Assembly (NCBI GenBank): GCA_022449545.1
Contig: JAKUPN010000001.1
Span: forward strand, 62,001-126,000
Direction of reading: 5' to 3'
Length of the DNA stretch: 64,000 bases
Source of the DNA: Alphaproteobacteria bacterium
GTDB taxonomy: Bacteria; Pseudomonadota; Alphaproteobacteria; UBA6615
Shown in pieces: positions 51,110-63,059 of this stretch (position 1 is its first letter; every line of letters begins with the position of its first letter). The notes under the pieces are model-generated. The model saw only the letters and a program-made list of their open reading frames with translations. It was not told the origin of the DNA and did no database searches. The position numbers were made by a program, and so were the translations under genes.

Positions 51110-52648
51110 TTACTTTCCCGATTTCATAGCTAAACCTATAATAATTGATAAAGAACAAACTATAAAAAGAACAATAAAAGTATCCTTAAAACCGAACATG
51201 TTTGACTGTACGTTAATAACTTTTTCTAAGTACTGAAGCGCCATTGGCGCCTGATCTAAAACAGGTAAACCAGCGTGAGAAAGCAGATTCTTAACTTTTT
51301 CCAATAGGTCCAAAGTTTGGGGGTTTCCTGCATTTTGCAATGGAGTCAACATTTCACTAAAAAATTGTGTTCTTCTCTCTAAAAAGACAGCAAAGAGATT
51401 TACTCCAAAAGCCCCTCCAAGTTGGCGCATACAATTTACTGTTCCAGAGGCTTGAGCAACCATATCTGCTGAAACTGGTCTAAGTGCACCAACGCTCACT
51501 GCTGGAAAAACAAATGTATTGCCTATACGACCGATTAAAACCCACAAAGTCAGCAGCCAAAAACTTGTGTTCAAATCAGCAAAAGATGTCAAAAGGGCAG
51601 AAACAGCTATTAAAGCCATACCTATTGAAGACAAGAAAGCGATAGACACTTTATCGCTTAAATAACCTCCTAGAGGGAAAAGAAACACCAAAAGCACCTG
51701 CGGAAATAAGATCAAACCGGCTTGAGTAGCTGATAGCCCTTGAACAGTTTGCACAAATAGTGGAACCATATAAGTGGTAACAAAGATAGATAGGCCAAAG
51801 ACAAAACTAACAATAGCTGCCGAAGCAAATCGTAGGTTTAAAAAAAGCCTTAATTCTATTAAAGGGTCGTTTACCTTTAACTCCCAAAAAATAAAAAACA
51901 CAGAAGCAAAAATTGATGTCCAGAAGAGAAGTATAACTTCAAGAGAGCTCCAACCTAACCTCTGACCATTTACAAAAGCCGTTAGAAAACCAACTGTTAC
52001 TATCAACATTAGTATAAAACCGAGCCAATCAAACTTTGGGATTTTTATTGATCGGTCTCGACCAGGAAGGGTAAAAGGCGAAAGCAACAAGCCGATTAAA
52101 GCAAAAGGAAGGGCAACGTAAAAGGTATGACGCCAGCCATAAAAATCTACAACAATTCCGCCAAAAAGGGGAGCAACAGCGGGAGCAAGAACTGTTCCCA
52201 TGGCGAATAGTCCCATCGCTTTACCGCGTTGCTCGGGAGGAAATACTCTGAACATTGCCAACATTGAAATTGGTTGAACTATTCCAGCAGCGGCACCTTG
52301 TAAAACTCTAGAAAGAATCAAAATATCTTGGTTCGGAGATATGGCACCCAGTAATGACGCAAAAACAAATAATGTAAGTACCAATATAAATGTTAGCCTC
52401 AATCCTATTGCTTTATCTAACCAATCAATCATGAGCATTGTTGAGGTCATAGCTGCAAGAAAGGCTGTTGACATCCATTGGGCTGTTATTTGTCCCATAC
52501 CGAAGTAACCCATGATGTCAGGAATAGCAGTGTTAATTACGGTAATTGCCAGCGTAACCGCTACTCCAGATGCAATGGCGGTGATAGAGACCAGCCACCT
52601 TTGCAAGTGACTATTATGCTCTGACATTGAGCTAACCGTCGTCAGCAT
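51110..52648 (-). CDS. emrB: DHA2-family MFS efflux permease (EmrB-like)
   Basis: 512 residues with 14 predicted transmembrane helices, the DHA2 count. Drug/H+ antiporter motifs: motif A-like region after helix 2, motif C GLFAMGTVLAPAVAPLFGGI in helix 5, and the FRVFPPEQRGKAMGL loop. With EmrA and an outer-membrane channel it pumps hydrophobic compounds out. It overlaps the emrA stop by 17 bp if it starts at the track ATG; an ATG at 52627 would remove the overlap. marR-emrA-emrB is one operon. Confidence 0.93.
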   Translation of the reverse strand: MLTTVSSMSEHNSHLQRWLVSITAIASGVAVTLAITVINTAIPDIMGYFGMGQITAQWMSTAFLAAMTSTMLMIDWLDKAIGLRLTFILVLTLFVFASLLGAISPNQDILILSRVLQGAAAGIVQPISMLAMFRVFPPEQRGKAMGLFAMGTVLAPAVAPLFGGIVVDFYGWRHTFYVALPFALIGLLLSPFTLPGRDRSIKIPKFDWLGFILMLIVTVGFLTAFVNGQRLGWSSLEVILLFWTSIFASVFFIFWELKVNDPLIELRLFLNLRFASAAIVSFVFGLSIFVTTYMVPLFVQTVQGLSATQAGLILFPQVLLVFLFPLGGYLSDKVSIAFLSSIGMALIAVSALLTSFADLNTSFWLLTLWVLIGRIGNTFVFPAVSVGALRPVSADMVAQASGTVNCMRQLGGAFGVNLFAVFLERRTQFFSEMLTPLQNAGNPQTLDLLEKVKNLLSHAGLPVLDQAPMALQYLEKVINVQSNMFGFKDTFIVLFIVCSLSIIIGLAMKSGK

Positions 52649-53801
52649 CGATCTCTATATTTAATTCAACCATCATACCAGGCCGCAGATGATTGCTTCT
52701 TTGCTTAATTTCAATACGGACAGGAATACGCTGAGTAACTTTTGTAAAGTTTCCACTAGGATTGGGAGCAGGCAATAATGCAAACTGGCTGGTAGTAGCA
52801 TCTCCGATTCTAACTAATTTTCCGGAATATATTTGATTCGGATAAGCGTCCACCTGAACCGAAACCAATTGTCCAATCTTTAGATTGCGCAATCTGGTTT
52901 CTTTAATATTAGCTTCAATCCATACGTAACTGGGGTCGTGCATCAGGAAAAGTCTCTGCCCCGATTGAGCCATTTCACCCGACGATATAAAACTCTTATC
53001 AATAACTCCGTCAATCGGGCTAAATATATTAGTCTTATCTATCTGTATTTTCTTACCATCAATTTTTGCAACGAGATGTGCCTTCTGAGCCATATGTCTA
53101 GATAGCTCATGTTGCAAAACATCGATTTCATCACGTGTAATTTTTGCTGACCTCAGAGCGGCTTCTGCTACCTTGACCTTAGCAGCAGCTTTTCTCGCCT
53201 CTTGATTTTTCATTTCTACTCTAGTTTTAAGAAAACGCCATTTTTTTATGGAAATAACGCCCCTATCTTTCAAAGAATCAGCCCGATAAAAATCATCTTT
53301 AGCCAATTTAATATTTAACTGACGAGCTGAAAATTCAGCTTTAGCCGCAGCAAGTTCCGATTTTCTTTCAACTACCAAAGCTGCTGTTCTACGATCTAAC
53401 ATCTTTATCTGAGACTCAATTTGACGAATTTGTGCTAGTTTTCCATCCACTAGAAAATTGAGTTCTCTCAATTCTATTATCGCTTCCCGATCATCAATTT
53501 TAAGCAAAAGGTCTCCAGGCCTAACTTTATCCCCCTCTTTAACATTTACGCTAATAATATTGCCTGCTGCACGAGAGCTGATAGTTTTCATCTCGGTGTC
53601 AATCCGAGCGTCAACCACATGAATATTATTTATTTGATCGAGGTACCAGCTTACAGCTCCCGCAGCTGCAGCAAGGATTAACAAAAGAGTTAAACCAGCT
53701 TTAAGGTAGAATTTACTCCCCAAAGATCTCGTCTTTGGTTTTATGTTGGGATTAGTATCAGAATTATTGGAGAGTTCGCTATTGGGCATCGGTTCAACCA
53801 A
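52632..53801 (-). CDS. emrA: HlyD-family membrane fusion protein (EmrA-like)
   Basis: 389 residues. An N-terminal membrane anchor (LKAGLTLLLILAAAAGAVSWYL) is followed by a lipoyl half-motif near VNVKEGDKVRPGDLLLKIDD, a long coiled-coil hairpin (about 115-240), and the second lipoyl/beta-barrel half with FSPIDGVIDKSFISSGEMAQSG. This links the EmrB permease to the outer membrane channel. It lies between marR (10 bp) and emrB. Confidence 0.93.
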   Translation of the reverse strand: MVEPMPNSELSNNSDTNPNIKPKTRSLGSKFYLKAGLTLLLILAAAAGAVSWYLDQINNIHVVDARIDTEMKTISSRAAGNIISVNVKEGDKVRPGDLLLKIDDREAIIELRELNFLVDGKLAQIRQIESQIKMLDRRTAALVVERKSELAAAKAEFSARQLNIKLAKDDFYRADSLKDRGVISIKKWRFLKTRVEMKNQEARKAAAKVKVAEAALRSAKITRDEIDVLQHELSRHMAQKAHLVAKIDGKKIQIDKTNIFSPIDGVIDKSFISSGEMAQSGQRLFLMHDPSYVWIEANIKETRLRNLKIGQLVSVQVDAYPNQIYSGKLVRIGDATTSQFALLPAPNPSGNFTKVTQRIPVRIEIKQRSNHLRPGMMVELNIEIDADDG

Positions 53802-53811
53802 GATTGTAAGG

Positions 53812-54270
53812 TTAATTAACCTTCTTATATGAAGAAACCTTAAGACCTATATGCTTAAAAACATTTAAGCAGACGCTGATTTCTTCTTTGGTAAGGTCGC
53901 TAAGAAACTCATCTCTAAAATCATTAATCGTTGTTTTAATCTCTTCTACTAATGGTCGACCTTTCTCAGTAATTGATATAACTTTTCGTCTTCGGTCACT
54001 TTTAGATTCACGTCGCTCAATAAGGCTCATACTCTCTAAAGCATCGAGTAAACGGACTAACGTTGGTCCCTCAATACCCATACTTAAAGCAAGATCTTTT
54101 TGAGAAAGCTCTTCACTGCTTCGAGAAATATAATAGAGTGTTAACCACCGCGACTGAGTCATTCCTACAGACATCAGATGTTTGTCCACAAGGCTTCTCC
54201 AAGACCAGTAAAGTCTCGCAAGCTCAATATTAAAATTTTCTTTTTCTTCTGCATTAATAGTCATCGACAT
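53812..54270 (-). CDS. MarR-family transcriptional regulator
   Basis: 152 residues. Winged helix-turn-helix at about 30-100, with TQSRWLTLYYISRSSEELSQKDLALS, recognition helix GIEGPTLVRLLDALESMSLI and wing RRESKSDRRRKVISITEKG. MarR-type proteins repress adjacent efflux genes until a phenolic or similar ligand binds. It is first in the marR-emrA-emrB operon. Two TAGYATACTA repeats start 6 bp before its ATG and are likely its operator. Confidence 0.93.
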   Translation of the reverse strand: MSMTINAEEKENFNIELARLYWSWRSLVDKHLMSVGMTQSRWLTLYYISRSSEELSQKDLALSMGIEGPTLVRLLDALESMSLIERRESKSDRRRKVISITEKGRPLVEEIKTTINDFRDEFLSDLTKEEISVCLNVFKHIGLKVSSYKKVN

Positions 54271-58535: not shown

Positions 58536-61500
58536 CTACTTACTCTTTCTCTCCCACACCGCAACACTAATTGACATCATTGGTGGAACAACAGCCAATG
58601 TAAGTACAGCAGATAACGCCAGTCCTCCAATCACAACGGAGCCCAGACCACGGTACAACTCAGAGCCCGCTCCTGGAAAAACTACCAAAGGCAGCATACC
58701 AAAGACCGACGTTAAAGTTGACATAAAAATCGGTCTAATCCTGTTTCGTGTAGCCAGAGTTATGGCCTCGTCTGCCGACATTCCCTGTTTGCGGATATGT
58801 AATAAGGTTTGATGAACAAGGAGTATCGCATTGTTTACAACTATACCAATTAGAATAATAAAACCTAACATGGTCAACATATCCAATGGCTGAAAAACCG
58901 ATTTATTTAATAAGGCTAAGCCAGCCAACCCTCCGGCAGCTGCTATGGGCACAGAGAGTAAAATTATCAGAGGATAGACAAAACTCTCAAACAAAATAGC
59001 CATTACTAAATAAACTATAACTACTGCTAGAAGTAGATCAATAATAATCTCATTCCAGGTTGCTGTTAACTTATCAGCCGTACCACTAACCCTAAAACGA
59101 ACTCCTTCAGGCACCCCAGCTGCCTCAATAGGTTCTATAACCTGCTCTTTAATTAGCTCAATAGCTTTTTGCAAAGGCATAGAATCTGAAGGGGTCACTC
59201 TCAATGTCATAGTTCTAACTCGTTCCGATCGGCGAATTTCAGTCGGACCACTCGTTACTGTTACTTTTGCAAGGCTATCTACAGATATTAAACGACCTTC
59301 GCGCGTCACCATAGGCAAAGAACCAATTTTCTGGGTTGTGTTAATTTGATCCAGTTCGCCCATAAGCATCAGATCAATTCGTTTCCCGTCCACTGTAATC
59401 TCAGAAACTCTTACCCCGTCATTAAATGCATCTATAGAATGGCCCAATTCCTGCGCAGTTAAACCATTGTCTGCAAGAGCAGTTGGATCAGGTTCTACCC
59501 TTATCTCAGGTGCCCCTAGTGTTAGGCTCGGGAGCGGACGTGTTCGGTGTCCGTCTTTGGGAGGCAACAGTTGCATTAGCTTAAAAAACGCCTTTTTTCC
59601 TACTTCATAAATAAGAGGTAGCTCAGGTCCAGACACATCAATATCCACCGCACGCCCTCCTCCTACCGAGCGACCAAATAATGAGGGTTGAAAAACAAAT
59701 GCAAATGTCCCAGGCTCTTGAAAGGCTGCCTTCTGCATAATGGGGATGAGATCCCTCACTCGTGTTGAGTCTTGCGCTGTTCCACCAATGAAAGCCCTAC
59801 CATTAAAATCGACTCGCAAAAATCGTTGGAATTTTGGAGAATCATCTTTTACATCTGTTTCTCTTGATTCAGTCACCCAATTTTTACGAGTTCTATCTGC
59901 GATTTTTTCTGTGAGCTCGCTCACTGTATCGAGATTATAACCAGCAGGTGGTTGAACAAAACCAAATACAAAATTCCGATTTCCAGTAGGTAAATAATCG
60001 AGCTTTGGCAAAAATAAAATTGTTGAAGCAACAGAAATACCAGTAATTAGAACAACAACTCCAACGGCAGAAATTTTTGATCTTACAACCAGTCGAGCAA
60101 AAAATATCCAGAACCTGGTAAACCCACTTGCAAAATAATCTAGCACAGGAATTCTGAGAGATTCATTCTCACTGTAGTTTTTAACTAAAAGTCGATTTGA
60201 TAAAGCAGGTATCAAGGAAATTGAGACTAAAAGAGAAAGAAGCACTGATACAGATATTGCAACTGCGATATCGCGAAAAAGCTGCCCTACTTCCAGATCC
60301 ATTAAAAGGATTGGAATAAAAACCATAACTGTAGTCAGAGCGGAAACTAATACAGCTGGCCAGACTTCAATTGCCCCTTGATAAGCTGCTTCGGACCGGG
60401 AAAATCCACCCTGCCTAAGTCGAAAAATATTTTCGAGAACAACTATTGCCGCATCAACAACCATACCCACTGCGAAAGCAATGCCCGCTAGGCTAATTAC
60501 GTTTAGTGAGCGCCCCAACAAAGCCATGGCAACAAATGAGCCGATTACAGATACAGGTATAGCTAAAGAAATAACAAGAGTTGGACGCCAAGACCTTAAA
60601 AACAAAAGCAATATAACTGCTGCTAATACTCCACCAACAAATATATTCTGCTGAACCAATCTAATTGCAGAGTTAATATAAACTGTTTCATCAAATACAT
60701 TTTGTACCTTCAGTCCCACATCATTTAGGACTCCTTCACCTAACTCTTTTACTGCTAAGTGCACTTTAGACATTGTTTGTAAAACGTTCGCGCCTTGAGA
60801 ACGAGTCATGTTAAAAGCCATAGCTCTCTCGTCAAAGTTATGGGCTATAGCGCGAGCTTTCTTATATGACAGGTAAACTTTTGCTACATCACCAACAGTT
60901 ACTCTGCCAATTCTTTCTTTACCTGATATGTACTCTGAACGAAGGACTATATTTCGGACCTGCTCAGGCCTGTTTAAATCTCCTTCAGTGCGAACAACAT
61001 AACTTCTTTTACCCTCCTCAACATTTCCCCCAGATATAGAAGCATTTTCTGCCCTAACACGCTTTAAAACATCCGAAATAGTCAGGCGATATTGTGCTAA
61101 TCTCTGTGCGTCAATTACGATTCTTAATTCACGCTTAGTTTCTCCATAAATATTAACAGCAGATATACCTTCAATACGTTCGATTCTTTCCTGCACAACA
61201 TCTTCTAAAAAATCACCATAGGTTATCATATCACGATCGTTTCCTGGCTTACGTGTAAGCAAAAACCAGGCTATGGCATTGTCATCTGTTCCTGATGTTC
61301 TTAATAGAGGTTCATTCGCCTCTGCGGGGTATCCTGTGACACGATCAAGCCGATTAGCGACCAATAAAAGAGCTCTGTCCATATTCTGACTGGGAGCAAA
61401 TTCTAGAGTAACTTCAGCTCTTCCAGTTCTACTTCGACTTTGCATTGAGCGAATTCCCTCAAGTCCCTTTAGCACCTCTTCTTGACGGTTAACTATCTCA

Positions 61501-61682
61501 CGTTCAACTTCTGCCGGCGCCGAACCTGGCCAGAAAGTTTGTACAATTATCACTGGTTGACGCACATCAGGAGCCATCTGTATTGGTATACGTTGGAGGG
61601 CAACATAACCAAACAAAACAACCATCAACACAACTGCGACTATCGCAACCGGTCGATTAATGGAAAAAGAGATGAGATTCAT
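58536..61682 (-). CDS. RND efflux transporter, inner-membrane pump
   Basis: 1048 residues with the RND layout: helix 1, a large porter domain, helices 2-6 with the family signature, a second porter domain and helices 7-12. In helix 4 the sequence is AVGMVVDAAIVVLENIF: AcrB has two Asp here, this pump has Asp-Ala. In helix 10 the AcrB Lys position is Asn (GIVVNNAILLVHQ). It exports compounds by proton drive with the adaptor encoded just upstream (30 bp). Substrates are unknown; drugs and lipids are both possible. Confidence 0.93.
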   Translation of the reverse strand: MNLISFSINRPVAIVAVVLMVVLFGYVALQRIPIQMAPDVRQPVIIVQTFWPGSAPAEVEREIVNRQEEVLKGLEGIRSMQSRSRTGRAEVTLEFAPSQNMDRALLLVANRLDRVTGYPAEANEPLLRTSGTDDNAIAWFLLTRKPGNDRDMITYGDFLEDVVQERIERIEGISAVNIYGETKRELRIVIDAQRLAQYRLTISDVLKRVRAENASISGGNVEEGKRSYVVRTEGDLNRPEQVRNIVLRSEYISGKERIGRVTVGDVAKVYLSYKKARAIAHNFDERAMAFNMTRSQGANVLQTMSKVHLAVKELGEGVLNDVGLKVQNVFDETVYINSAIRLVQQNIFVGGVLAAVILLLFLRSWRPTLVISLAIPVSVIGSFVAMALLGRSLNVISLAGIAFAVGMVVDAAIVVLENIFRLRQGGFSRSEAAYQGAIEVWPAVLVSALTTVMVFIPILLMDLEVGQLFRDIAVAISVSVLLSLLVSISLIPALSNRLLVKNYSENESLRIPVLDYFASGFTRFWIFFARLVVRSKISAVGVVVLITGISVASTILFLPKLDYLPTGNRNFVFGFVQPPAGYNLDTVSELTEKIADRTRKNWVTESRETDVKDDSPKFQRFLRVDFNGRAFIGGTAQDSTRVRDLIPIMQKAAFQEPGTFAFVFQPSLFGRSVGGGRAVDIDVSGPELPLIYEVGKKAFFKLMQLLPPKDGHRTRPLPSLTLGAPEIRVEPDPTALADNGLTAQELGHSIDAFNDGVRVSEITVDGKRIDLMLMGELDQINTTQKIGSLPMVTREGRLISVDSLAKVTVTSGPTEIRRSERVRTMTLRVTPSDSMPLQKAIELIKEQVIEPIEAAGVPEGVRFRVSGTADKLTATWNEIIIDLLLAVVIVYLVMAILFESFVYPLIILLSVPIAAAGGLAGLALLNKSVFQPLDMLTMLGFIILIGIVVNNAILLVHQTLLHIRKQGMSADEAITLATRNRIRPIFMSTLTSVFGMLPLVVFPGAGSELYRGLGSVVIGGLALSAVLTLAVVPPMMSISVAVWERKSK

Positions 61683-61712: not shown

Positions 61713-63059
61713 TTACTGACGAGACGTTCTAACACTTTGCCCGGGGCGAAGATTCTCATTCCCTCTGATAACCACAGAGTCTCCCACCTTTAAACCAGAT
61801 AGAACAACAAAACGACTACCAGTTGACTGACCAAGTTTTACTGTTTTGGGTATACTCTGCTGATTGCTGATCAAAAAAACCTTATCAACTCCATCACGTT
61901 GAATAACTGCGTCCTTAGATACTGTTATAACCTTAGAACTTTTTCCAATTGGGACGTTTAAAGTAACATTTTGATTTGTAGCCAACGGTAAATTCAAAGA
62001 AGAAAAGTCTGGTTCAAATCTTACCATTCGCGTTCGAGTTCTCGGATTTTCGTCAGGTATAACTGCATATACTGATGCTTTATAATAAATTTTCCCATTG
62101 AATGTTAATTGTAGAGTTTGACCAGGTTTAAGTTTTCCTAGTTTTGTGCGAGGAACCTCGGCCTCAACCATAACACTTTTGTCGTTAATTAAACCCAAAA
62201 CTGGGTTACCTACTTTCAAAAATGCCCCTACCTCGGTATATTTTGTACTTACTACACCAGGATAAGGTGAGCGAATCTGACTGTCTTTTAGATTAATTAT
62301 TGAACGTCTTAACTGTGCTCGAGCCTGAAGTAATTGTGCAGCTGTTTCATCCACTTTACTTTTTTGTTTTACCACCTCCTGAATAACCTCTAAGTATTTT
62401 GCCTGAGAGAAAGAAGATGACTTTCGAATAACTTTTAATCGGTTTAGCTCTAGGCTGCGTTTCTCAAAATCTGCTTTTGCACTATCAAGCCTCGCAATTT
62501 GCTGTGAAACAATGGCCTCGTTTCGATCACGTTCAACTAATAAAACTTCGGTATCCAGCTCAGCTAGTAATTGGCCCGTTTTAACTCGGTCTCCAACTCC
62601 AACATAAATCTTTTTTACAGGGCCACTAATCCGTGTTGCTACAGGCCCAAACTCATTAGACACAACACGGCCTAAAATTGGTACAGTTTGGGTCATAACC
62701 TCCTCTATTACTGCATCAACAACTACATTAGCTATTGGACCACCTTTATTTTGTTTCTTTCCAGCACCACCACGAAAAAAGTTGAATAACTCCGTGCCAT
62801 TAAGGGAACCATTTTTATCCTTATCAATCACATCGAAGTTTGAGCTTACTGGCCCTCTAGCTTCATTGCGCTCAATTAAATTATTATTATTTTTATCTAG
62901 AATTTTTGCCATTGCAGACAATTTTCTAACTTCCTGGGCATCTAATACATAGGAATCATTTAAACCAGATTCAGAAACGAAAAAAACTAAAAAGCTGATT
63001 AAAATAATTCCAATTTTAATAAATGTTGTTTTCAATTTTTTTCCTAATATTTTATTCAT
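61713..63059 (-). CDS. RND periplasmic adaptor with N-terminal EF-hand pair
   Basis: 448 residues. After an N-terminal signal/anchor helix (about 13-29) comes a pair of EF-hand loops, D55-x-N-x-N-x-L-I-x3-E66 and D79-x-D-x-N-G-S-L-x3-E90, with Ca2+-ligand spacing and the hydrophobic residue at position 8. An RND adaptor follows: lipoyl half GPVKKIYVGVGDRVKTGQLLAELD, coiled-coil hairpin (about 180-260), second lipoyl half SPYPGVVSTKYTEVGAFLKVGN and beta-barrel. Most adaptors lack EF-hands. The pump gene is 30 bp downstream. A calcium-sensing role is inferred only. Confidence 0.9.
   Translation of the reverse strand: MNKILGKKLKTTFIKIGIILISFLVFFVSESGLNDSYVLDAQEVRKLSAMAKILDKNNNNLIERNEARGPVSSNFDVIDKDKNGSLNGTELFNFFRGGAGKKQNKGGPIANVVVDAVIEEVMTQTVPILGRVVSNEFGPVATRISGPVKKIYVGVGDRVKTGQLLAELDTEVLLVERDRNEAIVSQQIARLDSAKADFEKRSLELNRLKVIRKSSSFSQAKYLEVIQEVVKQKSKVDETAAQLLQARAQLRRSIINLKDSQIRSPYPGVVSTKYTEVGAFLKVGNPVLGLINDKSVMVEAEVPRTKLGKLKPGQTLQLTFNGKIYYKASVYAVIPDENPRTRTRMVRFEPDFSSLNLPLATNQNVTLNVPIGKSSKVITVSKDAVIQRDGVDKVFLISNQQSIPKTVKLGQSTGSRFVVLSGLKVGDSVVIRGNENLRPGQSVRTSRQ

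Follow-up and report, generated by a model that had tools for sequence, protein, structure and literature searches.

RND adaptors form a crowded and well-solved family, and the solved members matched in this analysis show no Ca2+-binding domain. The adaptor described here shares its whole core, and the pairing of its gene with that of an AcrB-family pump, with MexJ, TriA, MacA, AcrA and MexA (TIGR01730), but none of the matched PDB adaptors aligns to its EF-hand segment (aa 45-96), the alignments starting at aa 102 or later. The heavy-metal RND systems of CusB and CzcB differ from it at the level of the pump, which fails the heavy-metal class (TIGR00914, 302 bits against a cut-off of 701). Compact, short-linker EF-hand pairs of small secreted or periplasmic bacterial proteins have in common with the pair described here 12-residue loops, a period of ~24 residues and the motif E-A-x-G-P/x...F-x-x-x-D; elsewhere, however, they are mostly small stand-alone proteins, whereas this pair is fused to an efflux adaptor. 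Of 399 Pseudomonadota genomes searched with the pair profile, 72 contain compact EF hands, and among about 39 EF-hand matches other than our own that were read by eye (the best plus ten mostly long frames, of some 100 listed) none was adaptor-like. The one other EF-hand_7 match found in the genome under study is a 157-aa secreted four-loop protein (L117:1324-1797, contig C15). EfhP (PA4107), a Ca2+ sensor of Pseudomonas aeruginosa, resembles our module in having two EF hands and a predicted periplasmic location, but is a stand-alone regulator outside any pump (PMC9132961).

Among solved proteins, the pair profile matches lanmodulins best (8fns, 1.2e-12; 6mi5, 1.3e-12), owing to the short spacing of the loops. 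The stated hallmarks of a lanmodulin are that it has four EF hands, that neighbouring hands are separated by 12-13 residues and that one or more of them has a Pro at position 2 (PMC10232371), and the period of exactly 24, with 12 residues between loops, in all 35 pairs that we read likewise agrees with the second of these, although short spacing is common among ordinary bacterial EF-hand proteins. Loop 1 also has E9, which Hans-LanM uses, in 24 of the 35 pairs. Lanmodulin carries its four EF hands within fewer than 200 residues, whereas the present adaptor has two in 448 aa and its relatives up to six, and, unlike lanmodulin, the EF-hand adaptors have no Pro at position 2 (0/70 loops), an Asn-rich loop 1 (N at position 3 and mostly N at 5, rather than carboxylates) and no XoxF context. 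Such lanmodulin-spaced pairs outside lanmodulin should be useful for learning the determinants of metal choice. Open-licence PMC text yielded no paper that brings EF-hand and RND together with either periplasmic adaptor or membrane fusion protein. Both parts of the protein are thus known families, and the new element is their conserved, tandem-copy fusion.

The adaptor and its partner pump lie on the minus strand of the window, by which we mean the whole 64,000-nucleotide stretch of DNA that was analysed, with the following features:

61713..63059, minus strand: RND periplasmic adaptor (membrane fusion protein) with N-terminal EF-hand pair, 448 aa (TIGR01730; HlyD_D23 and HlyD_3)
62934..63059, minus strand: signal sequence, aa 1-42 (sequence, A-x-A/Q ends of orthologs, lipobox pattern absent)
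62772..62927, minus strand: EF-hand pair module, aa 45-96 (AlphaFold2 model)
62862..62897, minus strand: EF loop 1, DKNNNNLIERNE, aa 55-66 (sequence and ortholog alignment)
62790..62825, minus strand: EF loop 2, DKDKNGSLNGTE, aa 79-90 (sequence and ortholog alignment)
62733..62771, minus strand: Gly/Lys-rich linker from EF module to adaptor core, aa 97-109 (pLDDT below 50 at aa 98-105; column identity 54%)
61725..62732, minus strand: adaptor core with membrane-proximal, lipoyl, alpha-hairpin and barrel parts, aa 110-445 (TIGR01730 at aa 113-444; Foldseek to MacA, AcrA and MexA)
58536..61682, minus strand: AcrB/AcrD/AcrF-family RND pump, 1048 aa, second gene of the pair (ACR_tran, 2.2e-201)

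The assignment of the core is secure by profile, with aa 113-444 matching the NCBIfam profile TIGR01730 (RND_mfp) at 160.9 bits (cut-off 94.9) and the protein also exceeding the Pfam cut-offs for HlyD_D23 and HlyD_3; in Foldseek, the adaptor model matches AcrA, MacA and MexA at E 1e-22 to 1e-26, and TMexC was matched as well. The adaptor gene lies 30 bp upstream of the pump gene, and in relatives the pump comes after the adaptor at every locus long enough to tell. Relatives found in a plasmid search matched the adaptor core only, all at less than 60% identity. The signal sequences of orthologs terminate in A-x-A/Q, the slash marking the cut, and in the window protein cleavage by signal peptidase I is probable near LDA/QE, as predicted from the sequence. 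The lipobox pattern was found in none of 61 adaptors searched, with or without the EF module, and the idea that the module is a plain replacement for a lipid anchor is ruled out, as EF-less sister adaptors also have no lipobox.

An earlier note on this DNA had placed two complete EF-hand loops at 62790-62897, N-terminal to the lipoyl core of an RND adaptor, and had called such a module out of the ordinary for the family. The coordinates are exact, and the loops, 12 residues apart between the signal sequence and the lipoyl core, are complete as described, with positions 1, 3, 5 and 12 occupied by D/N/N/E in loop 1 and D/D/N/E in loop 2 and a hydrophobic position 8 in both (I and L, respectively). 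The fusion itself is borne out by profile matches, ortholog alignment and AlphaFold2, and the sister adaptors do not have the module. Loop 1 departs from the canonical pattern in having N60 rather than Gly as its sixth residue, which could weaken that site. When the N-terminal 110 aa were shuffled (n=200,000), 0.15% of the shuffled sequences gained a single loop and none a pair with a spacing of 24; together with the orthologs, these shuffles rule out a chance match as the source of the pair. EF-hand_6 scores 3.3e-5 and 23.7 bits on the window protein, just below the curated Pfam cut-off of 25, a gathering score that is a threshold and not a structural feature, so that threshold-based annotation misses the domain. 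The same profile matches all 19 aligned orthologs at E<=0.01, the best at 3.9e-14.

Structure prediction, which the earlier note had proposed as a check, gave an EF-hand pair both in the full-length protein and in the module alone. The full-length AlphaFold2 model (27 sequences; mean pLDDT 84.4) places helix 49-54, strand 62-63, helices 70-73 and 75-78, strand 86-87 and helix 88-96 in the EF segment, at a pLDDT of about 85-88, and falls below 50 at aa 98-105. Modelled by itself (aa 41-100, 34 sequences; mean pLDDT 90.8), the module has helices at its residues 9-14, 29-38 and 48-55, each of the two loops contains a short strand, and its Foldseek matches are nearly all EF-hand Ca2+ proteins, though at E > 0.1 for this 60-residue query. 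The models therefore predict an EF-hand fold attached to the core through a disordered linker; as a consequence of that disorder and a pTM of 0.50, they do not fix the placement of the module relative to the pump, the membrane or the core.

All 19 aligned orthologs retain D55, N57, E66, D79, G88 and E90, among them all four ligands whose conservation the earlier note had singled out for checking (D55, E66, D79 and E90). Across the 35 pairs, loop 1 has D1, N3, N or D5 and E12 without exception (35/35 each), and loop 2 has D1 in 34/35 and D or N3 and E12 in 35/35. The EF module has a mean column identity of 71%, close to the 73% of the adaptor core, compared with 54% for the linker and 33% for the signal part. 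In a comparison with an 88%-identical relative, pN/pS is 0.14 for the EF module, a value based on 11 differences in 52 codons; the core gives 0.19 and the signal part about 1. Signal and linker have drifted, whereas the EF module evolves at the slow pace of the core; the EF domain is real and conserved by selection.

Our ortholog survey covered 60 related genomes, 24 of them in the same bacterial family, and adaptors that align over the EF segment are present in 19 of those 24. They also occur in another family within the class, f30, represented by L019 and by further genomes found later. The named relatives are metagenome-assembled alphaproteobacteria, the nearest being MarineAlpha12_Bin1 at 88% identity, and the titles of some mention Tara Red Sea samples. 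The group is mostly uncultured and several members are explicitly marine; for the others, whose titles give no habitat, a marine origin is presumed. The EF module is missing from sister adaptors that work with a pump of the same kind. A tree uniting the fusion adaptors in one clade, as a single origin of the fusion would produce, is not rejected (AU p 0.31). With the EF-less sisters as built-in controls, the clade lends itself to asking whether the adaptor-pump joint is stabilised or controlled by divalent cations.

The number of EF-hand pairs varies within this group. We read 21 complete adaptors, taken from the window genome and the named loci; there is one pair in 8 of them, two in 12 and three in a single protein (L053, six loops), 35 pairs in total. 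One-pair and two-pair forms are intermixed in the main EF clade of a tree built on the adaptor core with the EF part excluded, indicating that pairs have been gained or lost repeatedly. Copies within one protein are on average 78% identical, versus 64% between proteins at either position, which is consistent with repeated duplication or conversion of pairs, as judged from the sequences. In a deeper EF-adaptor lineage (L053:8001-9791 and L057:1172-2719), each pair contains two cysteines (MDCDKNGG...GCPK), perhaps forming a disulfide that closes each EF module.

Of the two roles that the earlier note had raised for the module, a structural, always-bound part or a gate of adaptor-pump assembly, we favour the former, on account of the copy-number change, the Gly-rich tether and the published micromolar Kd of a periplasmic EF-hand protein. 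We propose that the adaptor of a two-gene RND efflux operon acquired a compact bacterial EF-hand pair at its mature N-terminus, and that, on balance, the pair is probably a constitutively Ca2+-loaded, folded and tethered N-terminal domain with a structural or docking role rather than one in Ca2+ sensing. Sea-water Ca2+ is about 10 mM. Each pair would bind two Ca2+, and we read the sites as constantly loaded since a periplasmic bacterial EF-hand protein has a Kd for Ca2+ of 13.7 uM (PMC9132961), far below the sea-water concentration; permanently filled sites would in turn make the module a constitutively folded tethered domain. It may sit on its flexible tether where the adaptor ring comes closest to the membrane, near the membrane-proximal ring of the pump. 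Its likely job there would be to steady the N-terminal end of the adaptor, or to dock it, on lipid head groups or the base of the pump. Rings of six are known from other RND adaptors, and we assume one here; six adaptors per pump would then provide 12 Ca2+ sites in this system and up to 36 in the three-pair relative. Close relatives share the adaptor and the pump yet have one, two or three pairs, a variability that is easier to reconcile with a modular tether than with a gate of fixed stoichiometry. Counted against a structural docking role are the sister adaptors, which work without the module, the N at position 6 of loop 1 in the window protein, and the pumps themselves, since those paired with EF adaptors showed no feature that their EF-less sisters do not have.

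Weighing the evidence, we rank four alternatives below constitutive loading. The best placed, though still unlikely, is that a portable, compact EF pair was spread by recombination and is folded but has no specific role in efflux. Such pairs are common in small secreted proteins, their copy number here is unstable, and a genome of the same family that has no EF adaptor (G009) encodes a similar pair within a 347-aa protein resembling an MBL-fold hydrolase (L119:1221-2264; an assignment by motif reading rather than by profile), from which we take the module to be portable. A mere passenger would not, however, be expected to show ligands under strong purifying selection across a divergent clade, nor retention of the EF adaptor in 19/24 genomes of the family.

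A Ca2+ gate or sensor, in which binding or loss of Ca2+ alters the module and thereby switches adaptor-pump assembly or efflux, is somewhat less probable again, even though EF-hand pairs are classical switches and the ligands are strongly conserved; in addition, the title of a reference cited in PMC9132961 reports Ca2+ acting on RND pumps in Pseudomonas. Against this, sea-water Ca2+ is near constant and far above the sole measured Kd of a periplasmic EF hand, the number of pairs goes from 1 to 3 without other change in adaptor or pump, and the flexible linker offers no obvious means of transmitting a switch. We give the same low standing to its fullest form, a Ca2+-controlled RND pump in which loading of an EF ring with 12 to 36 sites per hexamer would let the adaptor dock or seal, periplasmic Ca2+ thereby licensing drug or lipid efflux.

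CusF-like domains deliver metal to Cu/Ag pumps, and by analogy the module might gather a divalent cation and pass it to the pump as substrate. Heavy-metal RND systems do have metal-binding adaptors, and CusB and ZneB are among the structural matches of the adaptor core, but delivery of this kind is decidedly improbable here: the pump scores best with the drug-type model RND_permease_2 (592 bits), its heavy-metal score lies far under the class cut-off as given above, and EF-less sister pumps retain the same motifs. Least probable of all, and unsupported, is lanthanide handling, in which a lanmodulin-like module would bind rare earths for the pump to move, as such or as chelates, since despite the kinship in spacing and E9 there is no Pro at position 2 and, with 25 genomes searched, no XoxF-type dehydrogenase or other PQQ alcohol dehydrogenase exceeded the cut-off in the own genome or in those that encode an EF adaptor.

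The pump has the motifs VDAAIVVLEN in TM4 (about aa 400-418) and VVNNAILLVHQ in TM10 (about aa 946), where AcrB has Asp407-Asp408 and Lys940, and pumps of this clade may use a different proton path from AcrB. Comparison of EF-hand pumps with EF-less sister pumps brought out no distinguishing feature, and co-adaptation of the pump to the EF module was rejected, both motifs being alike with and without EF hands (TM10 as read in part of the loci). A second export set, at 51110-54270 of the window, comprises a MarR-like regulator (called by reading of the sequence alone), an HlyD-type adaptor and an MFS transporter in EmrAB-like order, with no EF hands. The window pump has no adjoining Crp-type regulator, unlike several relatives, in which such a gene (cNMP_binding plus HTH_Crp_2) lies just downstream of or near the pump (L037:12472-13170; L033:13786-14553).
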